DNA from: Ectothiorhodospiraceae bacterium BW-2
GTDB lineage: Bacteria > Pseudomonadota > Gammaproteobacteria > Thiohalomonadales > Thiohalomonadaceae
NCBI GenBank assembly: GCA_008375315.1
Contig: CP032507.1
Location: 1,725,001-1,789,000, forward strand
DNA length: 64,000 nt
Direction of reading: 5' to 3'
Below, piece by piece: positions 43,051 to 63,286 of the stretch. Position 1 is the stretch's first letter; every line of letters starts with the position of its first letter. The notes beneath the pieces are model-generated. The model ran no database searches, was not told the origin of the DNA, and was given only the letters and a program-made list of their open reading frames with translations. The position numbers and the translations under genes are program-made.

Positions 43051-44616
43051 ATGAGCAAGATGACCAAACGCTACTTCAACACCACCGGCCCCTGCTTTCC
43101 CGACCACCACTACATGGTTGACCCGCTCAAACGGCTCAAAGGGGTTGAACAACTGATAGAGCAGGGGCAATACTTTGTCATTCACGCCCCGCGCCAAAGT
43201 GGCAAGACCACCTACGCCTTTGCGCTCATGGAGAAGCTGAATCGGGAGGGGGTCTATACGGTACTGATTAGCTCAATCCAACCGGCTGCCCAAGGGCAAA
43301 ATCCGATTGAAGCGATGAAAATTGCGGCCATGTGTATCGCTAAAGATAGCCGCCTCTATCTACCAGAGGCGGAGTGGTCGCCCGAAGTCGATAGAGGGGA
43401 GCAGGGGGCGGAAGATGGCCTGCTAAGCTACCTGCAACAGTGGAGTCTAAACAACCCCAAACCGATCGTGCTGTTGTTGGATGAGGTCGATTCGCTACAA
43501 GATGATAACTTTCTAGCGCTACTCTACCAGCTTCGTAGCGGTTTTGTTGGCCGCTACAAACAGGGCTTCCCCCACGCCATGGGGCTGATTGGGCTGCGCG
43601 ATGTGCGCGACTATAAAATTCGTCTGCGTCCTGACTCACAAAGCATGGGCACCGGCAGTCCGTTTAACATAAAAGCCGAATCGCTATTTGTCGATAGATT
43701 GACCGAGGAGGAGATTGTCACCCTCTTACAGCAACATAGCGAGGCGACCGGACAGCCCTTTGAACCACAAGCGATCGCGACCCTCGCCGAACTGACCCAA
43801 GGTCAGGCGTGGTTAGTTAACGCACTCGCCCACCATATCGTCCAGCGGCTATTAGAGGGTGATGTTGGCCAAATAATTACCGAAGCGCATGTATGGCAAG
43901 CGAAAGAGGCGCTTATTCTTCGTCGCGATACCCATCTAGACTCGCTGATCGATAAACTAAAAGAGCCGCAGGTGCGTGAAGTGATTACCGCAGTGATTAA
44001 CGGCAGCGCCCCTAACTTTGACCACTACAATGATGCCATTCTCTACTGTCGCAACCTAGGCCTCATCGCCCCCCACCCCCCGGTACGGTTTGCTAACCCG
44101 ATCTATCAAGAGATCATTCCACGGGTACTCAGTTTCGGTTTTCAAGAGAGTATCCCCCAAGACTATGCCGATCCCCACTGGTATATCCAACAGGGCAGAC
44201 TCGATATGGAGGCGCTGTTAAAAGCGTTTCAAAAGTTCTACCGCCGCCACTCCGAGGCGTGGCTAGAAAAGTACGATTTTCGAGAGGTAGGGCGGCAGCT
44301 TTTACTAATGGCCTTTTTACAGCGGGTGGTGAATGGCGGTGGGCGGATTGAGCGGGAGATGGCGGTCGGTAACGGTCGTTCTGATCTTATTGTGGAGTAT
44401 GGGGACGAGCGCTTTGTGCTGGAGTTAAAGCTCAACTATGACCGCTTTAGCGAAGAGGAGGGACTCGAACAGCTCGCCCGCTATCTGGATCGTCTCAATG
44501 AATCGACAGGCTACCTATTACTGTTTGAGTTAGATAGCGCTAAAAGCTGGGAGGAGCGTATCCGCTGGCAGAGGCTGACCGAGGCGGGTAGGCAGATTAT
44601 TTTAGTGGGAATGTAG
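43051..44616 (+). CDS. AAA ATPase / PD-(D/E)XK-like nuclease, array copy 1
   Basis: The 521-residue protein begins with a short unique N-terminus (MSKMT) and then joins the common sequence at KRYFNTTGPCFPDHHYMV. Walker A is APRQSGKTT and Walker B is VLLLDEVD. The GLRDVRDYKIR segment probably provides sensor residues. The C-terminal part has RSDLIVEYG and FVLELKL, matching the D-x(12)-E-x-K core of PD-(D/E)XK nucleases. Proteins of this kind are usually annotated only as ATP-binding proteins, and their function is unknown. No strong Shine-Dalgarno precedes this copy. It carries the NYDRFSEEEG block after the nuclease core, like copy 2, and the SAPNFDHY block, like copies 3 and 4. Confidence 0.88.
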   Translation: MSKMTKRYFNTTGPCFPDHHYMVDPLKRLKGVEQLIEQGQYFVIHAPRQSGKTTYAFALMEKLNREGVYTVLISSIQPAAQGQNPIEAMKIAAMCIAKDSRLYLPEAEWSPEVDRGEQGAEDGLLSYLQQWSLNNPKPIVLLLDEVDSLQDDNFLALLYQLRSGFVGRYKQGFPHAMGLIGLRDVRDYKIRLRPDSQSMGTGSPFNIKAESLFVDRLTEEEIVTLLQQHSEATGQPFEPQAIATLAELTQGQAWLVNALAHHIVQRLLEGDVGQIITEAHVWQAKEALILRRDTHLDSLIDKLKEPQVREVITAVINGSAPNFDHYNDAILYCRNLGLIAPHPPVRFANPIYQEIIPRVLSFGFQESIPQDYADPHWYIQQGRLDMEALLKAFQKFYRRHSEAWLEKYDFREVGRQLLLMAFLQRVVNGGGRIEREMAVGNGRSDLIVEYGDERFVLELKLNYDRFSEEEGLEQLARYLDRLNESTGYLLLFELDSAKSWEERIRWQRLTEAGRQIILVGM

Positions 44617-44634
44617 AGCAAGAGGAGAACACAC

Positions 44635-46215
44635 ATGGCGCAGCAGCAACCACATCGCATAGCAAAGCGCTACTTCAACACCACCGGCCCCTGTTTTCCC
44701 GACCACCACTACATGGTTGACCCGCTCAAACGGCTCAAAGGGGTTGAACAACTGATAGAGCAGGGGCAATACTTTGTCATTCACGCCCCGCGCCAAAGCG
44801 GCAAGACCACCTACGCCTTTGCGCTCATGGAGAAGCTGAATCGGGAGGGGGTCTATACGGTACTGATTAGCTCAATCCAACCGGCTGCCCAAGGGCAAAA
44901 TCCGATTGAAGCGATGAAAATTGCGGCCATGTGTATCGCTAAAGATAGCCGCCTCTATCTACCAGAGGCGGAGTGGTCGCCCGAAGTCGATAGAGGGGAG
45001 CAGGGGGCGGAAGATGGCCTGCTAAGCTACCTGCAACAGTGGAGTCTAAACAACCCCAAACCGATCGTGCTGTTGTTGGATGAGGTCGATTCGCTGCAAG
45101 ATGATAACTTTCTAGCGCTACTCTACCAGCTTCGTAGCGGTTTTGTTGGCCGCTACAAACAGGGCTTCCCCCACGCCATGGGGCTGATTGGGCTGCGCGA
45201 TGTGCGCGACTATAAAATTCGTCTGCGTCCTGACTCACAAAGCATGGGCACCGGCAGTCCGTTTAACATAAAAGCCGAATCGCTATTTGTCGATAGATTG
45301 ACCGAGGAGGAGATTGTCACCCTCTTACAGCAACATAGCGAGGCGACCGGACAGCCCTTTGAACCACAAGCGATCGCGACCCTCGCCGAACTGACCCAAG
45401 GTCAGGCGTGGTTAGTTAACGCACTCGCCCACCATATCGTCCAGCGGCTATTAGAGGGTGATGTTGGCCAAATAATTACCGAAGCGCATGTATGGCAAGC
45501 GAAAGAGGCGCTTATTCTTCGTCGCGATACCCATCTGGACTCGCTGATCGATAAACTAAAAGAGCCGCAGGTGCGTGAAGTGATTACCGCAGTGATTAAC
45601 GGCACCGAGCTGCATGATGATCGCTACAACGACGCCCTAAGCTATACCCAAGATTTAGGGTTGATAAGTCGCTGCCCCCCTATCCGTTTTGCCAATCCTA
45701 TCTACCAAGAGATTATTCCCAGAGTCTTGAGCTACCATTGGCAGCTCTCGATTCCCCAAGATTATGCCGATCCCCACTGGTATATCCAACAGGGCAGACT
45801 CGATATGGAGGCGCTGTTAAAAGCGTTTCAAAAGTTCTACCGCCGCCACTCCGAGGCGTGGCTAGAAAAGTACGATTTTCGAGAGGTAGGGCGGCAGCTC
45901 TTACTAATGGCCTTTTTACAGCGGGTGGTGAATGGCGGTGGGCGAATTGAGCGGGAGATGGCGGTCGGTAACGGTCGTTCTGATCTTATCGTGGAGTATC
46001 GAGGTGAGCGCTTTGTACTGGAGTTAAAGCTCAACTATGACCGCTTTAGCGAAGAGGAGGGACTCGAACAGCTCGCCCGCTATCTGGATCGTCTCGACGA
46101 ATCGACAGGCTACCTATTACTGTTTGAGTTAGATAGCGCTAAAAGCTGGGAGGAGCGTATCCGCTGGCAGAGGCTGACCGAGGCGGGTAGGCAGATTATT
46201 TTAGTGGGAATGTAG
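44635..46215 (+). CDS. AAA ATPase / PD-(D/E)XK-like nuclease, array copy 2
   Basis: The 526-residue copy starts MAQQQPHRIAKRYFNTTGPC, with GAGGAG ten bases before the ATG. Walker A is at 51-58, Walker B at about 145-150, and the nuclease core at D450, E463 and K465. It differs from the other three copies at about residues 323-372, where it reads TELHDDRYNDALSY and YHWQLS instead of SAPNFDHYNDAILY and FGFQES. That block also differs at many synonymous sites. Elsewhere it is nearly identical to copy 1. It also reads IVEYRGERF where the others have IVEYGDERF. Confidence 0.88.
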   Translation: MAQQQPHRIAKRYFNTTGPCFPDHHYMVDPLKRLKGVEQLIEQGQYFVIHAPRQSGKTTYAFALMEKLNREGVYTVLISSIQPAAQGQNPIEAMKIAAMCIAKDSRLYLPEAEWSPEVDRGEQGAEDGLLSYLQQWSLNNPKPIVLLLDEVDSLQDDNFLALLYQLRSGFVGRYKQGFPHAMGLIGLRDVRDYKIRLRPDSQSMGTGSPFNIKAESLFVDRLTEEEIVTLLQQHSEATGQPFEPQAIATLAELTQGQAWLVNALAHHIVQRLLEGDVGQIITEAHVWQAKEALILRRDTHLDSLIDKLKEPQVREVITAVINGTELHDDRYNDALSYTQDLGLISRCPPIRFANPIYQEIIPRVLSYHWQLSIPQDYADPHWYIQQGRLDMEALLKAFQKFYRRHSEAWLEKYDFREVGRQLLLMAFLQRVVNGGGRIEREMAVGNGRSDLIVEYRGERFVLELKLNYDRFSEEEGLEQLARYLDRLDESTGYLLLFELDSAKSWEERIRWQRLTEAGRQIILVGM

Positions 46216-46233
46216 AGCAAGAGGAGAACACAC

Positions 46234-47814
46234 ATGGCGCAGCAGCAACCACATCGCATAGCAAAGCGCTACTTCAACACCACCGGCCCCTGCTTTCCCG
46301 ACCACCACTACATGGTTGACCCGCTCAAACGGCTCAAAGGGGTTGAACAACTGATAGAGCAGGGGCAATACTTTGTCATTCACGCCCCGCGCCAAAGCGG
46401 CAAGACCACCTACGCCTTTGCGCTCATGGAGAAGCTGAATCGGGAGGGGGTCTATACGGTACTAATTAGCTCAATCCAACCGGCTGCCCAAGGGCAAAAT
46501 CCGATTGAAGCGATGAAAATTGCGGCCATGTGTATCGCTAAAGATAGCCGCCTCTATCTACCAGAGGCGGAGTGGTCGCCCGAAGTCGATAGAGGGGAGC
46601 AGGGGGCGGAAGATGGCCTGCTAAGCTACCTGCAACAGTGGAGTCTAAACAACCCCAAACCGATCGTGCTGTTGTTGGATGAGGTCGATTCGCTACAAGA
46701 TGATAACTTTCTAGCGCTACTCTACCAGCTTCGTAGCGGTTTTGTTGGCCGCTACAAACAGGGCTTCCCCCACGCCATGGGGCTGATTGGGCTGCGCGAT
46801 GTGCGCGACTATAAAATTCGTCTGCGTCCTGACTCACAAAGCATGGGCACCGGCAGTCCGTTTAACATAAAAGCCGAATCGCTATTTGTCGATAGATTGA
46901 CCGAGGAGGAGATTGTCACCCTCTTACAGCAACATAGCGAGGCGACCGGACAGCCCTTTGAACCACAAGCGATCGCGACCCTCGCCGAACTGACCCAAGG
47001 TCAGGCGTGGTTAGTTAACGCACTCGCCCACCATATCGTCCAGCGGCTATTAGAGGGTGATGTTGGCCAAATAATTACCGAAGCGCATGTATGGCAAGCG
47101 AAAGAGGCGCTTATTCTTCGTCGCGATACCCATCTAGACTCGCTGATCGATAAACTAAAAGAGCCGCAGGTGCGTGAAGTGATTACCGCAGTGATTAACG
47201 GCAGCGCCCCTAACTTTGACCACTACAATGATGCCATTCTCTACTGTCGCAACCTAGGCCTCATCGCCCCCCACCCCCCGGTACGGTTTGCTAACCCGAT
47301 CTATCAAGAGATCATTCCACGGGTACTCAGTTTCGGTTTTCAAGAGAGTATCCCCCAAGACTATGCCGATCCCCACTGGTATATCCAACAGGGCAGACTC
47401 GATATGGAGGCGCTGCTAAAAGCGTTTCAGGAGTTCTATCGCGAACACTCCGAGGCGTGGCTAGAAAAGTATGATTTTCGAGAGGTGGGGCGGCAGCTCT
47501 TACTCATGGCCTTTTTGCAGCGGGTGGTGAATGGCGGTGGGCGGATTGAGCGGGAGATGGCGGTCGGCAACGGTCGTTCTGATCTTATTGTGGAGTATGG
47601 GGACGAGCGCTTTGTGCTGGAGCTTAAACTGAAACGGAGCGAGTGGGATGAGTCGAAGGGGCTAAAGCAGCTCGCCCGCTATCTGGATCGTCTCAATGAA
47701 TCGACAGGCTACCTATTACTGTTTGAGTTAGATAGCGCTAAAAGCTGGGAGGAGCGTATCCGCTGGCAGAGGCTGACCGAGGCGGGTAGGCAGCTTATTG
47801 TAGTCGGGATGTAG
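46234..47814 (+). CDS. AAA ATPase / PD-(D/E)XK-like nuclease, array copy 3
   Basis: The 526-residue copy has the same N-terminus and upstream gap as copy 2, and the SAPNFDHYNDAILY block of copy 1. In the C-terminal region it switches: FQEFYREHSE replaces FQKFYRRHSE, and LKRSEWDESKGLKQ follows the ELK nuclease motif instead of LNYDRFSEEEGLEQ. The end reads LIVVGM instead of IILVGM. These changes are shared with copy 4. The ATPase and nuclease motifs are intact, so the protein is likely functional. Confidence 0.88.
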   Translation: MAQQQPHRIAKRYFNTTGPCFPDHHYMVDPLKRLKGVEQLIEQGQYFVIHAPRQSGKTTYAFALMEKLNREGVYTVLISSIQPAAQGQNPIEAMKIAAMCIAKDSRLYLPEAEWSPEVDRGEQGAEDGLLSYLQQWSLNNPKPIVLLLDEVDSLQDDNFLALLYQLRSGFVGRYKQGFPHAMGLIGLRDVRDYKIRLRPDSQSMGTGSPFNIKAESLFVDRLTEEEIVTLLQQHSEATGQPFEPQAIATLAELTQGQAWLVNALAHHIVQRLLEGDVGQIITEAHVWQAKEALILRRDTHLDSLIDKLKEPQVREVITAVINGSAPNFDHYNDAILYCRNLGLIAPHPPVRFANPIYQEIIPRVLSFGFQESIPQDYADPHWYIQQGRLDMEALLKAFQEFYREHSEAWLEKYDFREVGRQLLLMAFLQRVVNGGGRIEREMAVGNGRSDLIVEYGDERFVLELKLKRSEWDESKGLKQLARYLDRLNESTGYLLLFELDSAKSWEERIRWQRLTEAGRQLIVVGM

Positions 47815-47832
47815 AGCAAGAGGAGAACACAC

Positions 47833-49410
47833 ATGGCGCAGCAGCAACCACATCGCATAGCAAAGCGCTACTTCAACACCACCGGCCCCTGCTTTCCCGA
47901 CCACCACTACATGGTTGACCCGCTCAAACGGCTCAAAGGGGTTGAACAACTGATAGAGCAGGGGCAATACTTTGTCATTCACGCCCCGCGCCAAAGCGGC
48001 AAGACCACCTACGCCTTTGCGCTCATGGAGAAGCTGAATCGGGAGGGGGTCTATACGGTACTGATTAGCTCAATCCAACCGGCTGCCCAAGGGCAAAATC
48101 CGATTGAAGCGATGAAAATTGCGGCCATGTGTATCGAACAGGATAGCCGCCTCTATCTACCAGAGGCGGAGTGGTCGCCGACTGTTTCTGAAGTGAGCTT
48201 TCCTGAAAATGGACTACAACGCTACCTGCAACAGTGGAGTCTAAACAACCCCAAACCGATCGTGCTGTTGTTGGATGAGGTCGATTCGCTACAAGATGAT
48301 AACTTTCTAGCGCTACTCTACCAGCTTCGTAGCGGTTTTGTTGGCCGCTACAAACAGGGCTTCCCCCACGCCATGGGGCTGATTGGGCTGCGCGATGTGC
48401 GCGACTATAAAATTCGTCTGCGTCCTGACTCACAAAGCATGGGCACCGGCAGTCCGTTTAACATAAAAGCCGAATCGCTATTTGTCGATAGATTGACCGA
48501 GGAGGAGATTGTCACCCTCTTACAGCAACATAGCGAGGCGACCGGACAGCCCTTTGAACCACAAGCGATCGCGACCCTTGCCGAACTGACCCAAGGTCAG
48601 GCGTGGTTAGTTAACGCACTCGCCCACCATATCGTCCAGCGGCTATTAGAGGGTGATGTTGGCCAAATAATTACCGAAGCGCATGTATGGCAAGCGAAAG
48701 AGGCGCTTATTCTTCGTCGCGATACCCATCTAGACTCGCTGATCGATAAACTAAAAGAGCCGCAGGTGCGTGAAGTGATTACCGCAGTGATTAACGGCAG
48801 CGCCCCTAACTTTGACCACTACGATGATGCCATTCTCTACTGTCGCAACCTAGGCCTCATCGCCCCCCACCCCCCGGTACGGTTTGCTAACCCGATCTAT
48901 CAAGAGATCATTCCACGGGTACTCAGTTTCGGTTTTCAAGAGAGTATCCCCCAAGACTATGCCGATCCCCACTGGTATATCCAACAGGGCAGACTCGATA
49001 TGGAGGCGCTGCTAAAAGCGTTTCAGGAGTTCTATCGCGAACACTCCGAGGCGTGGCTAGAAAAGTACGATTTTCGAGAGGTGGGGCGGCAGCTCTTACT
49101 CATGGCCTTTTTGCAGCGGGTGGTGAATGGCGGTGGGAGGATTGAGCGGGAGATGGCGGTCGGTAACGGTCGTTCTGATCTTATTGTGGAGTATGGGGAC
49201 GAGCGCTTTGTGCTGGAGCTTAAACTGAAACGGAGCGAGTGGGATGAGTCGAAGGGGCTAAAGCAGCTCGCCCGCTATCTGGATCGTCTCAATGAATCGA
49301 CAGGCTACCTATTACTGTTTGAGATAGATAGCGCTAAAAGCTGGGAGGAGCGTATCCGCTGGCAGAGGCTGACCGAGGCGGGTAGGCAGCTTATTGTAGT
49401 CGGGATGTGA
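47833..49410 (+). CDS. AAA ATPase / PD-(D/E)XK-like nuclease, array copy 4
   Basis: The 525-residue last copy matches copy 3 except for a block between Walker A and Walker B (about residues 102-131). There it reads CIEQDSRLY and SPTVSEVSFPENGLQRYLQQ where the others have CIAKDSRLY and SPEVDRGEQGAEDGLLSYLQ, a net loss of one codon. It also has YDDAILY for YNDAILY and FEIDSAKSW for FELDSAKSW. Motifs are intact. The stop differs (TGA rather than TAG), and the common spacer is absent downstream, marking the end of the array 52 bp before the convergent bioA. Confidence 0.88.
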   Translation: MAQQQPHRIAKRYFNTTGPCFPDHHYMVDPLKRLKGVEQLIEQGQYFVIHAPRQSGKTTYAFALMEKLNREGVYTVLISSIQPAAQGQNPIEAMKIAAMCIEQDSRLYLPEAEWSPTVSEVSFPENGLQRYLQQWSLNNPKPIVLLLDEVDSLQDDNFLALLYQLRSGFVGRYKQGFPHAMGLIGLRDVRDYKIRLRPDSQSMGTGSPFNIKAESLFVDRLTEEEIVTLLQQHSEATGQPFEPQAIATLAELTQGQAWLVNALAHHIVQRLLEGDVGQIITEAHVWQAKEALILRRDTHLDSLIDKLKEPQVREVITAVINGSAPNFDHYDDAILYCRNLGLIAPHPPVRFANPIYQEIIPRVLSFGFQESIPQDYADPHWYIQQGRLDMEALLKAFQEFYREHSEAWLEKYDFREVGRQLLLMAFLQRVVNGGGRIEREMAVGNGRSDLIVEYGDERFVLELKLKRSEWDESKGLKQLARYLDRLNESTGYLLLFEIDSAKSWEERIRWQRLTEAGRQLIVVGM

Positions 49411-50970: not shown

Positions 50971-51507
50971 CTAAAATGGCACATCATCATCAAACATAGG
51001 GGGCTCTTGGTTGTGTTGTGGCGGAGCCGATTGTTGTTGAGGCTGTTGAGGCTGTTGAGGCTGTTGAGGCTGTTGAGGTTGTTGAGGCGGCTGTGGTCGC
51101 TGTTGGGGTGGCTGATATTGGCCGCTATCCATCGGCGCGGTAGCACCGCTACCCCCGCCTCGTCCCCCTAATAGCTGCATCTGGCCATTGTAGGGATCAA
51201 CCACGATTTCGGTGGTATAGCGATCTAGACCATTTTGATCCTGCCACTTATTGGTGCGAATTTTGCCTTCAATGTAAACTTGCGAGCCTTTGTTTAGGTA
51301 CTGAGCGGCTACCTCTGCCATTTTGCCGAAGATGACTACCCGATGCCATTCAGTGCGCTCCTGCTGTTGGCCGCTATTTTTGTCAGTCCAGACTTCATTA
51401 GTGGCTAGGTTTAGGGTGGCGATGGCTCGCTGATCTGCGGTATAGCGAATTTCGGGATCTCGCCCTAAAGTACCTAAAATAATTGCCTTATTAACGCCTC
51501 TGGCCAT
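50971..51507 (-). CDS. ssb: Single-stranded DNA-binding protein
   Basis: The 178-residue protein has an N-terminal OB fold ([54 protein letters not shown]). A Gly/Pro/Gln-rich linker follows, with repeated QQP triplets, and then the acidic tip MFDDDVPF that recruits partner proteins. AGGAGAG precedes the ATG at 51507. The linker DNA contains in-frame 9-bp tandem repeats, so its length may vary between strains. A full SOS box is not evident upstream. Confidence 0.97.
51033..51089. repeat. 9-bp tandem repeats in the ssb linker
   Basis: The unit CTGTTGAGG (plus strand) repeats five times in succession, with diverged units on both sides. It encodes PQQ triplets on the minus strand. Slippage would change linker length without a frameshift. 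Confidence 0.8.
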
Positions 51508-62296: not shown

Positions 62297-63286
62297 TTGT
62301 CACGCCAGAACGCCCTCTCAAATTGGCCGCAGCTCTCGTTAGGGGTGGGGGTCTCACTGCTGCTGCATGGGGCGCTGTTAGCGGCGCTGCTGCTGTTTGG
62401 GCGCGAGTTGACCCGTAGCGTAGTACCGCCGTCGCCCCCCCCATCGCAACCCGTTATCGAAGCGATCGCTATCGACGAGAGCCGTCTGGAGCAGCAGCGC
62501 CAAGCGAAACTAGAGGCCGAACGCCAAGCCAAAGCCAAAGCCGAGGCCGAGCAGCAAGCGAAACTAGAGGCCGAACGCCAAGCCCAAGCCAAAGCCAAAG
62601 CTAAAGCCGAAGCCGAGCAGCAAGCGAAACTAGAGGCCGAACGCCAAGCTAAAGCTAAAGCTAAAGCCGAAGCCGAGCAGCAAGCAAAACTAGAGGCCGA
62701 ACGCCAAGCTAAAGCTAAAGCTAAAGCCGAGCAGCAAGCAAAACTAGAGGCCGAACGCCAAGCTAAAGCTAAAGCCGAAGCCGAGCAGCAAGCAAAACTA
62801 GAGGCCGAGCGCCAAGCTAAAGCTAAAGCCGAGGCCGAGCAGCAAGCAAAACTAGAGGCCGAACGCCAAGCTAAAGCTAAAGCTAAAGCTAAAGCCGAGG
62901 CCGAGCAGCAAGCAAAACTAGAGGCCGAGCGCCAGGCGAGGGAGGAGGCGCTGCAAAAGCAGTTACAAGCCGAGTCTGAGAGACTACGCCAGCAGCATCA
63001 GCAGCAGCTAGGTCAGGCGCGACAGCGCTATATGGCCGCGCTACAGGCGAAAGTGGAGCGAAACTGGAACCCCCCACTGGGGGCCAAATCGGGTGACCGT
63101 TGTCAGGTTTTGGTCGATCAGATCCCCAGTGGCGTGGTGGTTGATGTTAAAGTAGAGAACTGTCGAGGTTCAGACGCTTTTCGCATCTCGGTTGAGCAGG
63201 CGGTAAGAAAGGCCTCACCGCTGCCAACACCGACGGAGCGAGAGCTGTTTGAGCGCGAAATTGAGTTTACCTTTTCACCACAATAG
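62297..63286 (+). CDS. tolA: Tol-Pal protein TolA
   Basis: TolA links TolQR to Pal and TolB through the periplasm. The 329-residue protein has a membrane anchor (LSLGVGVSLLLHGALLAALL), a long helical stretch of repeated Ala/Lys/Glu/Gln units, and a C-terminal domain (RYMAALQAKVERNW and GDRCQVLVDQIPSGVVVDV). The first codon is TTG at 62297, with no clear Shine-Dalgarno, so it may depend on ribosomes from tolR nine bases upstream. No ATG lies in a plausible position. Confidence 0.93.
   Translation: MSRQNALSNWPQLSLGVGVSLLLHGALLAALLLFGRELTRSVVPPSPPPSQPVIEAIAIDESRLEQQRQAKLEAERQAKAKAEAEQQAKLEAERQAQAKAKAKAEAEQQAKLEAERQAKAKAKAEAEQQAKLEAERQAKAKAKAEQQAKLEAERQAKAKAEAEQQAKLEAERQAKAKAEAEQQAKLEAERQAKAKAKAKAEAEQQAKLEAERQAREEALQKQLQAESERLRQQHQQQLGQARQRYMAALQAKVERNWNPPLGAKSGDRCQVLVDQIPSGVVVDVKVENCRGSDAFRISVEQAVRKASPLPTPTERELFEREIEFTFSPQ
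62490..62935 (+). repeat. Eight repeats in the tolA helical domain
   Basis: The octapeptide KLEAERQA occurs eight times, separated by AKAKAEAEQQA-like segments of varying length. The DNA units are about 48-60 bp and nearly identical (AAACTAGAGGCCGAACGCCA and variants). Recombination between units could change the domain's length in frame. Confidence 0.9.

Follow-up and report, generated by a model that had tools for sequence, protein, structure and literature searches.

Why would a bacterium keep four nearly identical ATPase-nuclease genes side by side, all of them intact? The question is raised by a tandem array, here called array W, in the genome of Ectothiorhodospiraceae bacterium BW-2. 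The array lies in a stretch of 64 kb (the window), which corresponds to positions 1725001-1789000 of a single 4,074,140-bp contig with a completeness of 99.73%. Comparison of the array with its relatives revealed that the ATPase core, the Walker motifs and the catalytic residues are kept, and that three segments (V1, V2 and V3, sometimes with a fourth) are ancient divergent alleles reassorted among copies, arrays and genomes. We propose, with belief and doubt evenly balanced, that W belongs to a repertoire of AAA+ ATPase-winged helix-PD-(D/E)XK proteins which spans several arrays and has been diversified combinatorially, and in which V2 and V3 would set the specificity, probably for defence.

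The open reading frames (ORFs) of the window include the four W genes, all full-length and on the + strand, separated by three 18-bp gaps, as the original prediction had described. It had also stated that the genes are near-identical with an exact 1599-bp period. The four copies are there, but copy 1 is without five N-terminal codons and copy 4 without one internal codon, so that the period is exact for the shared body only (the repeat register reads 1599/1599/1599 towards the 5' end and 1599/1599/1596 towards the 3' end). The proteins share 90-97% pairwise identity, with the differences sitting in blocks rather than evenly spread. Given the ribosome-binding-like motif in the gaps, the four genes look like one operon; a promoter and terminator scan of the array gave results at chance level. 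The GC fraction of array W is 0.534 against 0.536 for the window.

All four W proteins match PF14516 (AAA_35) over the gathering cut-off, with 35.9-36.6 bits against 27, and this family is matched by 80 of the 80 aligned sequences at E <= 0.01. The Walker A motif (APRQSGKT), the Walker B motif (LLLDE) and the D450-x(12)-E463-x-K465 signature noticed at the outset were found in every W copy, and the residues R53, Q54, G56, K57, D149, E150, D450, E463, K465, Q479 and Y483 are invariant in the 80 sequences. PD-(D/E)XK families match the W copies just under the Pfam cut-off (PF08011, PDDEXK_9: 19.7 bits against 25.5). An AlphaFold2 model of copy 2 comprises an AAA+ core with lid (residues ~1-310), a winged helix (311-378) and a nuclease domain (383-526). 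A Foldseek search of the whole model against the PDB gave as its top match the Walker ATPase 2qen of Pyrococcus abyssi (E 3e-9, template-modelling score 0.66 on the target), followed by ORC/Cdc6, RuvB, RFC, Orc1/Cdc6 on origin DNA (2qby, E 5.5e-7) and TnsC. Modelled alone, the nuclease domain has a pLDDT of 90.9, with its secondary structure in the order alpha-beta-beta-beta-alpha-beta (H-E-E-E-H-E). Its fold matches are weak (best E 1.4e-3) and mostly PD-(D/E)XK enzymes, such as Bax1, Hjc, EndoMS and OkrAI. The prediction thus places the catalytic D...(D/E)xK residues on the core characteristic of the PD-(D/E)XK superfamily, and the joining of an AAA ATPase to such a nuclease, anticipated from the letters, was borne out by both folds in the model.

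The genome-wide search proposed with that prediction returned 31 matches in the one contig, 26 of them full-length ORFs at seven places. Pseudogene fragments were found in array A and locus F. Array W is ~40% identical to the other copies, which are 60-98% identical among themselves.

In every array, windowed DNA comparison revealed stretches of ~95-100% identity interrupted by sharp-bordered blocks of 20-75% identity. Within array W the ATPase core is 99-100% identical at the DNA level while the segments occur as divergent alleles: V2 differs in copy 4, V3 in copy 2, and a nuclease tract in copies 3 and 4. Some identical stretches between copies exceed 1 kb, and a fourth variable block, in part of the nuclease, was found in some arrays only. 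In array A, two V1, four V2 and two V3 classes make nine different combinations in nine copies, and the copies at 287056 and 288779 have near-identical DNA except in V1. The copies at 2854859 and 2856602 are distinguished mainly by V3 and a portion of the lid region. At a 90% threshold, the V1-V4 combinations are all distinct in 23 of 23 array copies. Segment alleles are thus reassorted among copies on a constant scaffold, as a repertoire requires. Two types of spacer lie upstream of the array A genes and are linked to the V1 class; the one before I-class genes appears to contain the 5' end of a PP2C phosphatase gene (MVFNHYALTDIGRVREENQDRYLL), and the exchanged V1 module seems to take in the leader.

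The allele pairs of array A (V1 with V2, V1 with V3, and V2 with V3) and those of Tepidimonas fit no single tree without recombination or recurrent origin, and W, B1, B2 and C, each taken alone, fit one tree. In the tree of the cores, A+C, B1 and B2 separate with 97-100% support. In approximately unbiased (AU) tests, V2 rejected the clades A+C (p-AU 2.9e-8) and B1 (2.4e-44), and V1 rejected all three core clades, A+C, B1 and B2 (p-AU 0.014, 0.021 and 0.047). By these tests, the allele classes of V1 and V2 predate the arrays. V3 was dropped as evidence of descent across arrays, as the AU test keeps its A+C and B1 grouping (p 0.147 and 0.227). The same V1 and V2 classes recur in fragments from a related genus, where they are attached to another core; one fragment joins a B1-like core (94%) to a V2 of the array A type. 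The ratio of non-synonymous to synonymous substitution (dN/dS) is 0.06-0.38 within allele classes across arrays and 0.05-0.11 for the cores, orders of magnitude only as several synonymous distances are saturated. Values in this range indicate purifying selection on alleles and cores alike, in agreement with the original expectation that selection keeps the copies (~0.05-0.4 between arrays). As a control, six tandem unrelated genes at 711.7-718.0 kb show 0-4 differences per 720 nucleotides and no blocks; therefore, tandem amplification alone does not make the block pattern. These control genes (711673-718024; MKVANPMYDVVFRYLLDD..., ~315-341 amino acids) are nuclease-transposase-like by eye, without a Pfam match at E 1e-3, and differ mainly in a C-terminal repeat region.

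A second family in the same genome shows the same organisation. A gene with PF09820 and PF08011 was found near array C, and its protein has 40 matches in the genome, 34 of them full-length (>450 amino acids) and mostly in tandem arrays. PDDEXK_9 matches over the cut-off number 34 in this genome against none in 14 control genomes. Judged by sequence position, its three variable blocks lie at the equivalent places, namely the N-terminus, the Walker A-B interval and the wing of the winged helix, and 28 array copies hold 26 distinct combinations. Four tandem PF09820-type genes of a third type (3441089-3448349) are also mosaic, with an extra block near the gene middle. BLASTP detected no similarity between the PF14516-type and the PF09820+PF08011 families, and profile comparison by hhalign joined only their ATPases (probability 93, E 3.4e-7), suggesting a distant relationship that is at most remote. 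The two families amount to ~60 genes and ~100 kb, ~2.5% of the genome. DUF4143-type nucleases number one alone in the genome.

Relatives of the W proteins are encoded in at least 567 candidate stretches from many phyla. The distribution is scattered, as the family occurs in 2 of 19 other genomes of the order and 10 of 370 sampled genomes of the class, counting that of the window itself. In most groups the low-identity blocks are V2 and V3, usually together with V1. Tepidimonas sediminis has V2 {x,y} by V3 {p,q} in all four combinations, and tandem or multicopy mosaics were also found in Calothrix, Candidatus Symbiothrix and Candidatus Omnitrophus magneticus. Omnitrophus has at least 73 matches, with copy order to be taken with caution as its contigs are single-amplified-genome records and may be chimeric. 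Several Omnitrophus contigs share the first two array genes and differ in the third, reflecting either cell-to-cell shuffling or else chimeras from amplification and assembly. On Pseudanabaena plasmids, single copies exchange the same segments between plasmids and strains: L212 and L213 are 99% identical in V2 and 61% in V3, and L211 and L216 are 54% identical in V2 and 96% in V3. A tyrosine recombinase gene directly follows two of the eight plasmid copies (L211 and L215) and lies within 1.5 kb of two more (L213 and L218). No match was found in 50,697 phage records or in viral contigs.

The original prediction held that no described system has this array form, which is too strong as regards the expansion. 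In Cardinium cCpun, 25 paralogs of the sister family DUF1703 (PF09820+PF08011) occur and recombination among them was detected (PMC6387759). The Cardinium proteins share the domain order, the multicopy expansion in one genome and the paralog recombination with those studied here, and true DUF1703 members with three variable blocks exist in the BW-2 genome. In contrast, the W proteins match PF14516, with PF09820 unmatched and PF08011 under its cut-off, placing them outside DUF1703, and tandem combinatorial cassettes are not described in the consulted passages of the Cardinium paper (PMC6387759). The archaeal ATPase_2-type Walker ATPases include the best fold match (2qen, PABY2304) and a weak sequence match (2fna, E 0.1); the likeness to ATPase_2 plus DUF234 proteins is one of fold only, with PF01637 at 11.7-13 bits against 33.2 and PF03008 unmatched. 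The PADLOC model of Lamassu LmuA aligns through its C-terminal part with the nuclease domain (E 1.3e-7), but the match extends to no other domain and no SMC-type LmuB lies beside the array, so W was not assigned to Lamassu.

Two other systems bear comparison with the variable segments. In Orc1-2, the initiator-specific motif (ISM) and the winged helix give specific DNA binding, and the ISM is at 127-128, between Walker A K72 and Walker B E154 (PMC9738581). Orc1/Cdc6 and Orc1-2 have the AAA+ and winged-helix parts, with their DNA-specificity elements at the positions of V2 and V3; however, Orc1 has no fused nuclease, and the W family is no initiator by any test made. In type I restriction, the target-recognition domains of HsdS are shuffled (for example PMC4948785), with DNA inversion moving segments between a few hsdS genes. 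The likeness is one of function only, in that two or more specificity segments are recombined on a constant scaffold; in the W family, by contrast, every copy is complete and intact as a gene and lacks a methyltransferase or translocase partner. Membership of HsdS was rejected, as W has no HsdM/HsdR neighbour and no HsdS Pfam match.

A constant engine and a predicted cutting part with three swapped segments look like a shuffled sensor repertoire. In the mechanism that we propose, tandem duplication would make new copies, which segmental gene conversion through the conserved stretches then alters. V2 would take the place of the ISM, a correspondence by position, and V3 is the predicted winged helix. 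As V2 and V3 sit where Orc1/Cdc6 has its DNA-contacting elements, each combination is expected to have its own target specificity, whether for a sequence or structure of DNA or for some DNA-protein state of an invader. Upon the binding of ATP the protein would switch, and the nuclease would then cut. We infer that the segments determine target specificity; reading of the target by V2 and V3, with the cut made on ATP switching, is the simplest fit. The likely role would be to defend the cell against phages or plasmids, and selection would favour variety in the repertoire; the context of some copies speaks for such a role. A distance of 4.5 kb separates copy E from a type I-C cas3-cas5-cas8-cas7 set, beyond which PglZ and HEC-01 genes follow, and on Pseudanabaena plasmids the genes adjoining family copies include DISARM drmA, cas6 and a methyltransferase gene linked to phosphorothioation. 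The region at 1586500-1606400 was read as a defence island of type I-C cas3, cas5, cas8c and cas7, followed by transposases, a PglZ gene in truncated form and HEC-01 A/B genes; the 19.9 kb read beside copy E held no direct repeats of a CRISPR array. No gene recurs next to the arrays as an operon partner.

Several observations weigh against this proposal. Array W alone requires no recombination among its four members, and some Omnitrophus copies share one combination. Compared with independently shuffled alleles, the count of distinct combinations gave P 0.034 at the 90% threshold and 0.051 at 85%, which is weak, and therefore this statistic was not relied on. The correspondence of V2 to the ISM is positional and nothing more. 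We know of no activity for any member of the family. No modification or immunity partner was found, and thus a nuclease with sequence specificity would have to leave its own genome intact by some other means. Most copies, array W included, are among housekeeping genes outside defence islands, the PADLOC model matches are partial, and the tyrosine recombinase neighbours of some plasmid copies also fit a replicon-maintenance or mobile role.

The mosaic might instead be a by-product of selfish amplification, whereby the nuclease cuts at or near its own paralogs or at allelic sites, and segments and copies then spread, much as in homing, when the break is repaired from a sister copy, with no benefit to the cell. 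The high copy number, the tandem growth and the pseudogene fragments agree with this, as do the scattered distribution, the recombinase genes by four plasmid copies and the transposases next to some copies. Homing should, however, spread one allele, whereas divergent alleles coexist without a repeat among the 23 array copies. Since copies can stay identical after tandem amplification in this genome, as the unrelated six-gene array demonstrates, and phage carriage was not found, we consider selfish amplification unlikely. The variety could also be functionless, with duplicates of a useful gene swapping segments by RecA-dependent gene conversion and the blocks marking divergent donors. Such neutral concerted evolution seems distinctly unlikely to us, because the same three structural positions are affected in nearly all arrays, in two families and in several phyla, and because the V1 and V2 classes are older than the arrays and the alleles are under purifying selection. 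It gains from the 100%-identical conserved stretches, which are natural recombination substrates, from the weak statistic above and from the tree-compatible W array.

AAA+ proteins of such type commonly act as rings or filaments, and V1 and V2 flank the nucleotide-binding motif in sequence. The two segments might accordingly be subunit interfaces whose alleles keep each paralog in its own homo-oligomer, avoiding cross-talk rather than recognising targets. V3 in the winged helix is as variable as V1, though, and the V1 and V2 alleles of array A are freely combined, which is unexpected for a matched interface and makes this account improbable. Repeat collapse or mis-joining in assembly is the least plausible source of the combinations, and we give it hardly any credence. 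Identical stretches of more than 1 kb and possibly chimeric Omnitrophus contigs would invite it; but the BW-2 genome is a single, nearly complete contig, the alleles differ by 30-60%, far above sequencing error, and other, independent assemblies show mosaics too, among them the named-strain Tepidimonas genome and plasmid records labelled as complete sequences.

Table 1. Positions of the array W genes and their segments in the window, and of the other copies in the genome (kb).
Feature	Position	Strand	Description	Evidence
Copy 1	43051..44616	+	AAA+ ATPase-winged helix-PD-(D/E)XK gene, 521 amino acids	ORF, Pfam match, identity comparison
Copy 2	44635..46215	+	526 amino acids; AlphaFold2-modelled (pLDDT 86.6, pTM 0.83)	ORF, Pfam match
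Copy 3	46234..47814	+	526 amino acids	ORF, Pfam match
Copy 4	47833..49410	+	525 amino acids	ORF, Pfam match
18-bp gaps	44617..44634; likewise 46216-46233, 47815-47832	+	AGAGGAG ribosome-binding-like motif before ATG	read directly
Block V1, copy 2	44686..44772	+	residues 18-46, N-terminal, before Walker A; constant in W, two classes in other arrays	
Walker A, copy 2	44785..44808	+	residues 51-58, APRQSGKT; G56, K57 invariant	80-sequence alignment
Block V2, copy 2	44872..45054	+	residues 80-140, between strand 2 and Walker B, following Walker A	
Walker B, copy 2	45067..45084	+	residues 145-150, VLLLDE; D149, E150 invariant	80-sequence alignment
Block V3, copy 2	45565..45768	+	residues 311-378, winged helix and next helix	model and windowed comparison
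Divergent V3 (winged-helix) tract, copy 2	45603..45765	+	49-70% nucleotide identity per window to copies 1, 3 and 4; neighbours 98-100%	
PD-(D/E)XK nuclease domain, copy 2	45781..46212	+	residues 383-526; D450, E463, K465, Q479, Y483 invariant	alignment, model
Variant nuclease tract, copy 3	47623..47667	+	LKLKRSEWDESKGLK; copies 1 and 2 carry LKLNYDRFSEEEGLE	
Divergent V2 tract, copy 4	48136..48222	+	down to 62% nucleotide identity per 60-nucleotide window, against 98-100% around	
Variant nuclease tract, copy 4	49219..49263	+	as in copy 3	
Array A	274.6-293.0 kb		nine full copies and fragments	genome search
Array B	2851-2864 kb		4+3 copies (B1, B2)	genome search
Array C	889-896 kb		three copies	genome search
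Array W	window		four copies	genome search
Single copies D, E, G	975, 1585, 3803 kb			genome search
Broken copy F	718 kb			genome search

Judged by eye, the genes flanking array W encode an MFS transporter, a protein resembling Old yellow enzyme and a BioA-like aminotransferase. Elsewhere in the window, a 54-base repeat unit lies in an Ala/Glu/Lys-rich frame that is TolA-like by eye (62501-62930), and a 9-base tandem repeat lies in the SSB-like gene (51035-51088; Gln-Pro repeats on the minus strand).

The combinatorial mosaics, the several arrays per genome, the second family and the recurrence in other phyla were not foreseen by the original prediction. Expansion and recombination of ATPase-PD-(D/E)XK paralogs are already known from Cardinium DUF1703 (PMC6387759). 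What appears to be new is the combinatorial form with three cassettes, together with its counterpart in a second family and its recurrence in several phyla. That form was not found in the open-access papers searched, and no paper on a tandem AAA_35 nuclease family was found in full text, with most subscription journals outside the coverage and several queries too broad to tell much; the literature check was confined to open full text, so the novelty is provisional. A bolder proposal, which we offer tentatively and regard as possible though doubtful, is that several phyla keep germline-encoded combinatorial immune repertoires. These would consist of dozens of AAA+ nucleases from at least two distantly related families, their three recognition cassettes continually reshuffled by gene conversion, each gene being a different sensor and the variety itself selected.

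If the cassettes set specificity, BW-2 and its counterparts would have a bacterial combinatorial recognition repertoire built from whole intact genes, not from silent cassettes or CRISPR spacers. Such a repertoire, if true, would be common to two families with at most remote similarity, and it would give a function to very widespread proteins that are labelled only 'AAA-like domain-containing' or 'ATP-binding protein'. The arrays also supply ready-made protein sets whose members differ in just one segment, making direct tests of recognition by each segment possible.

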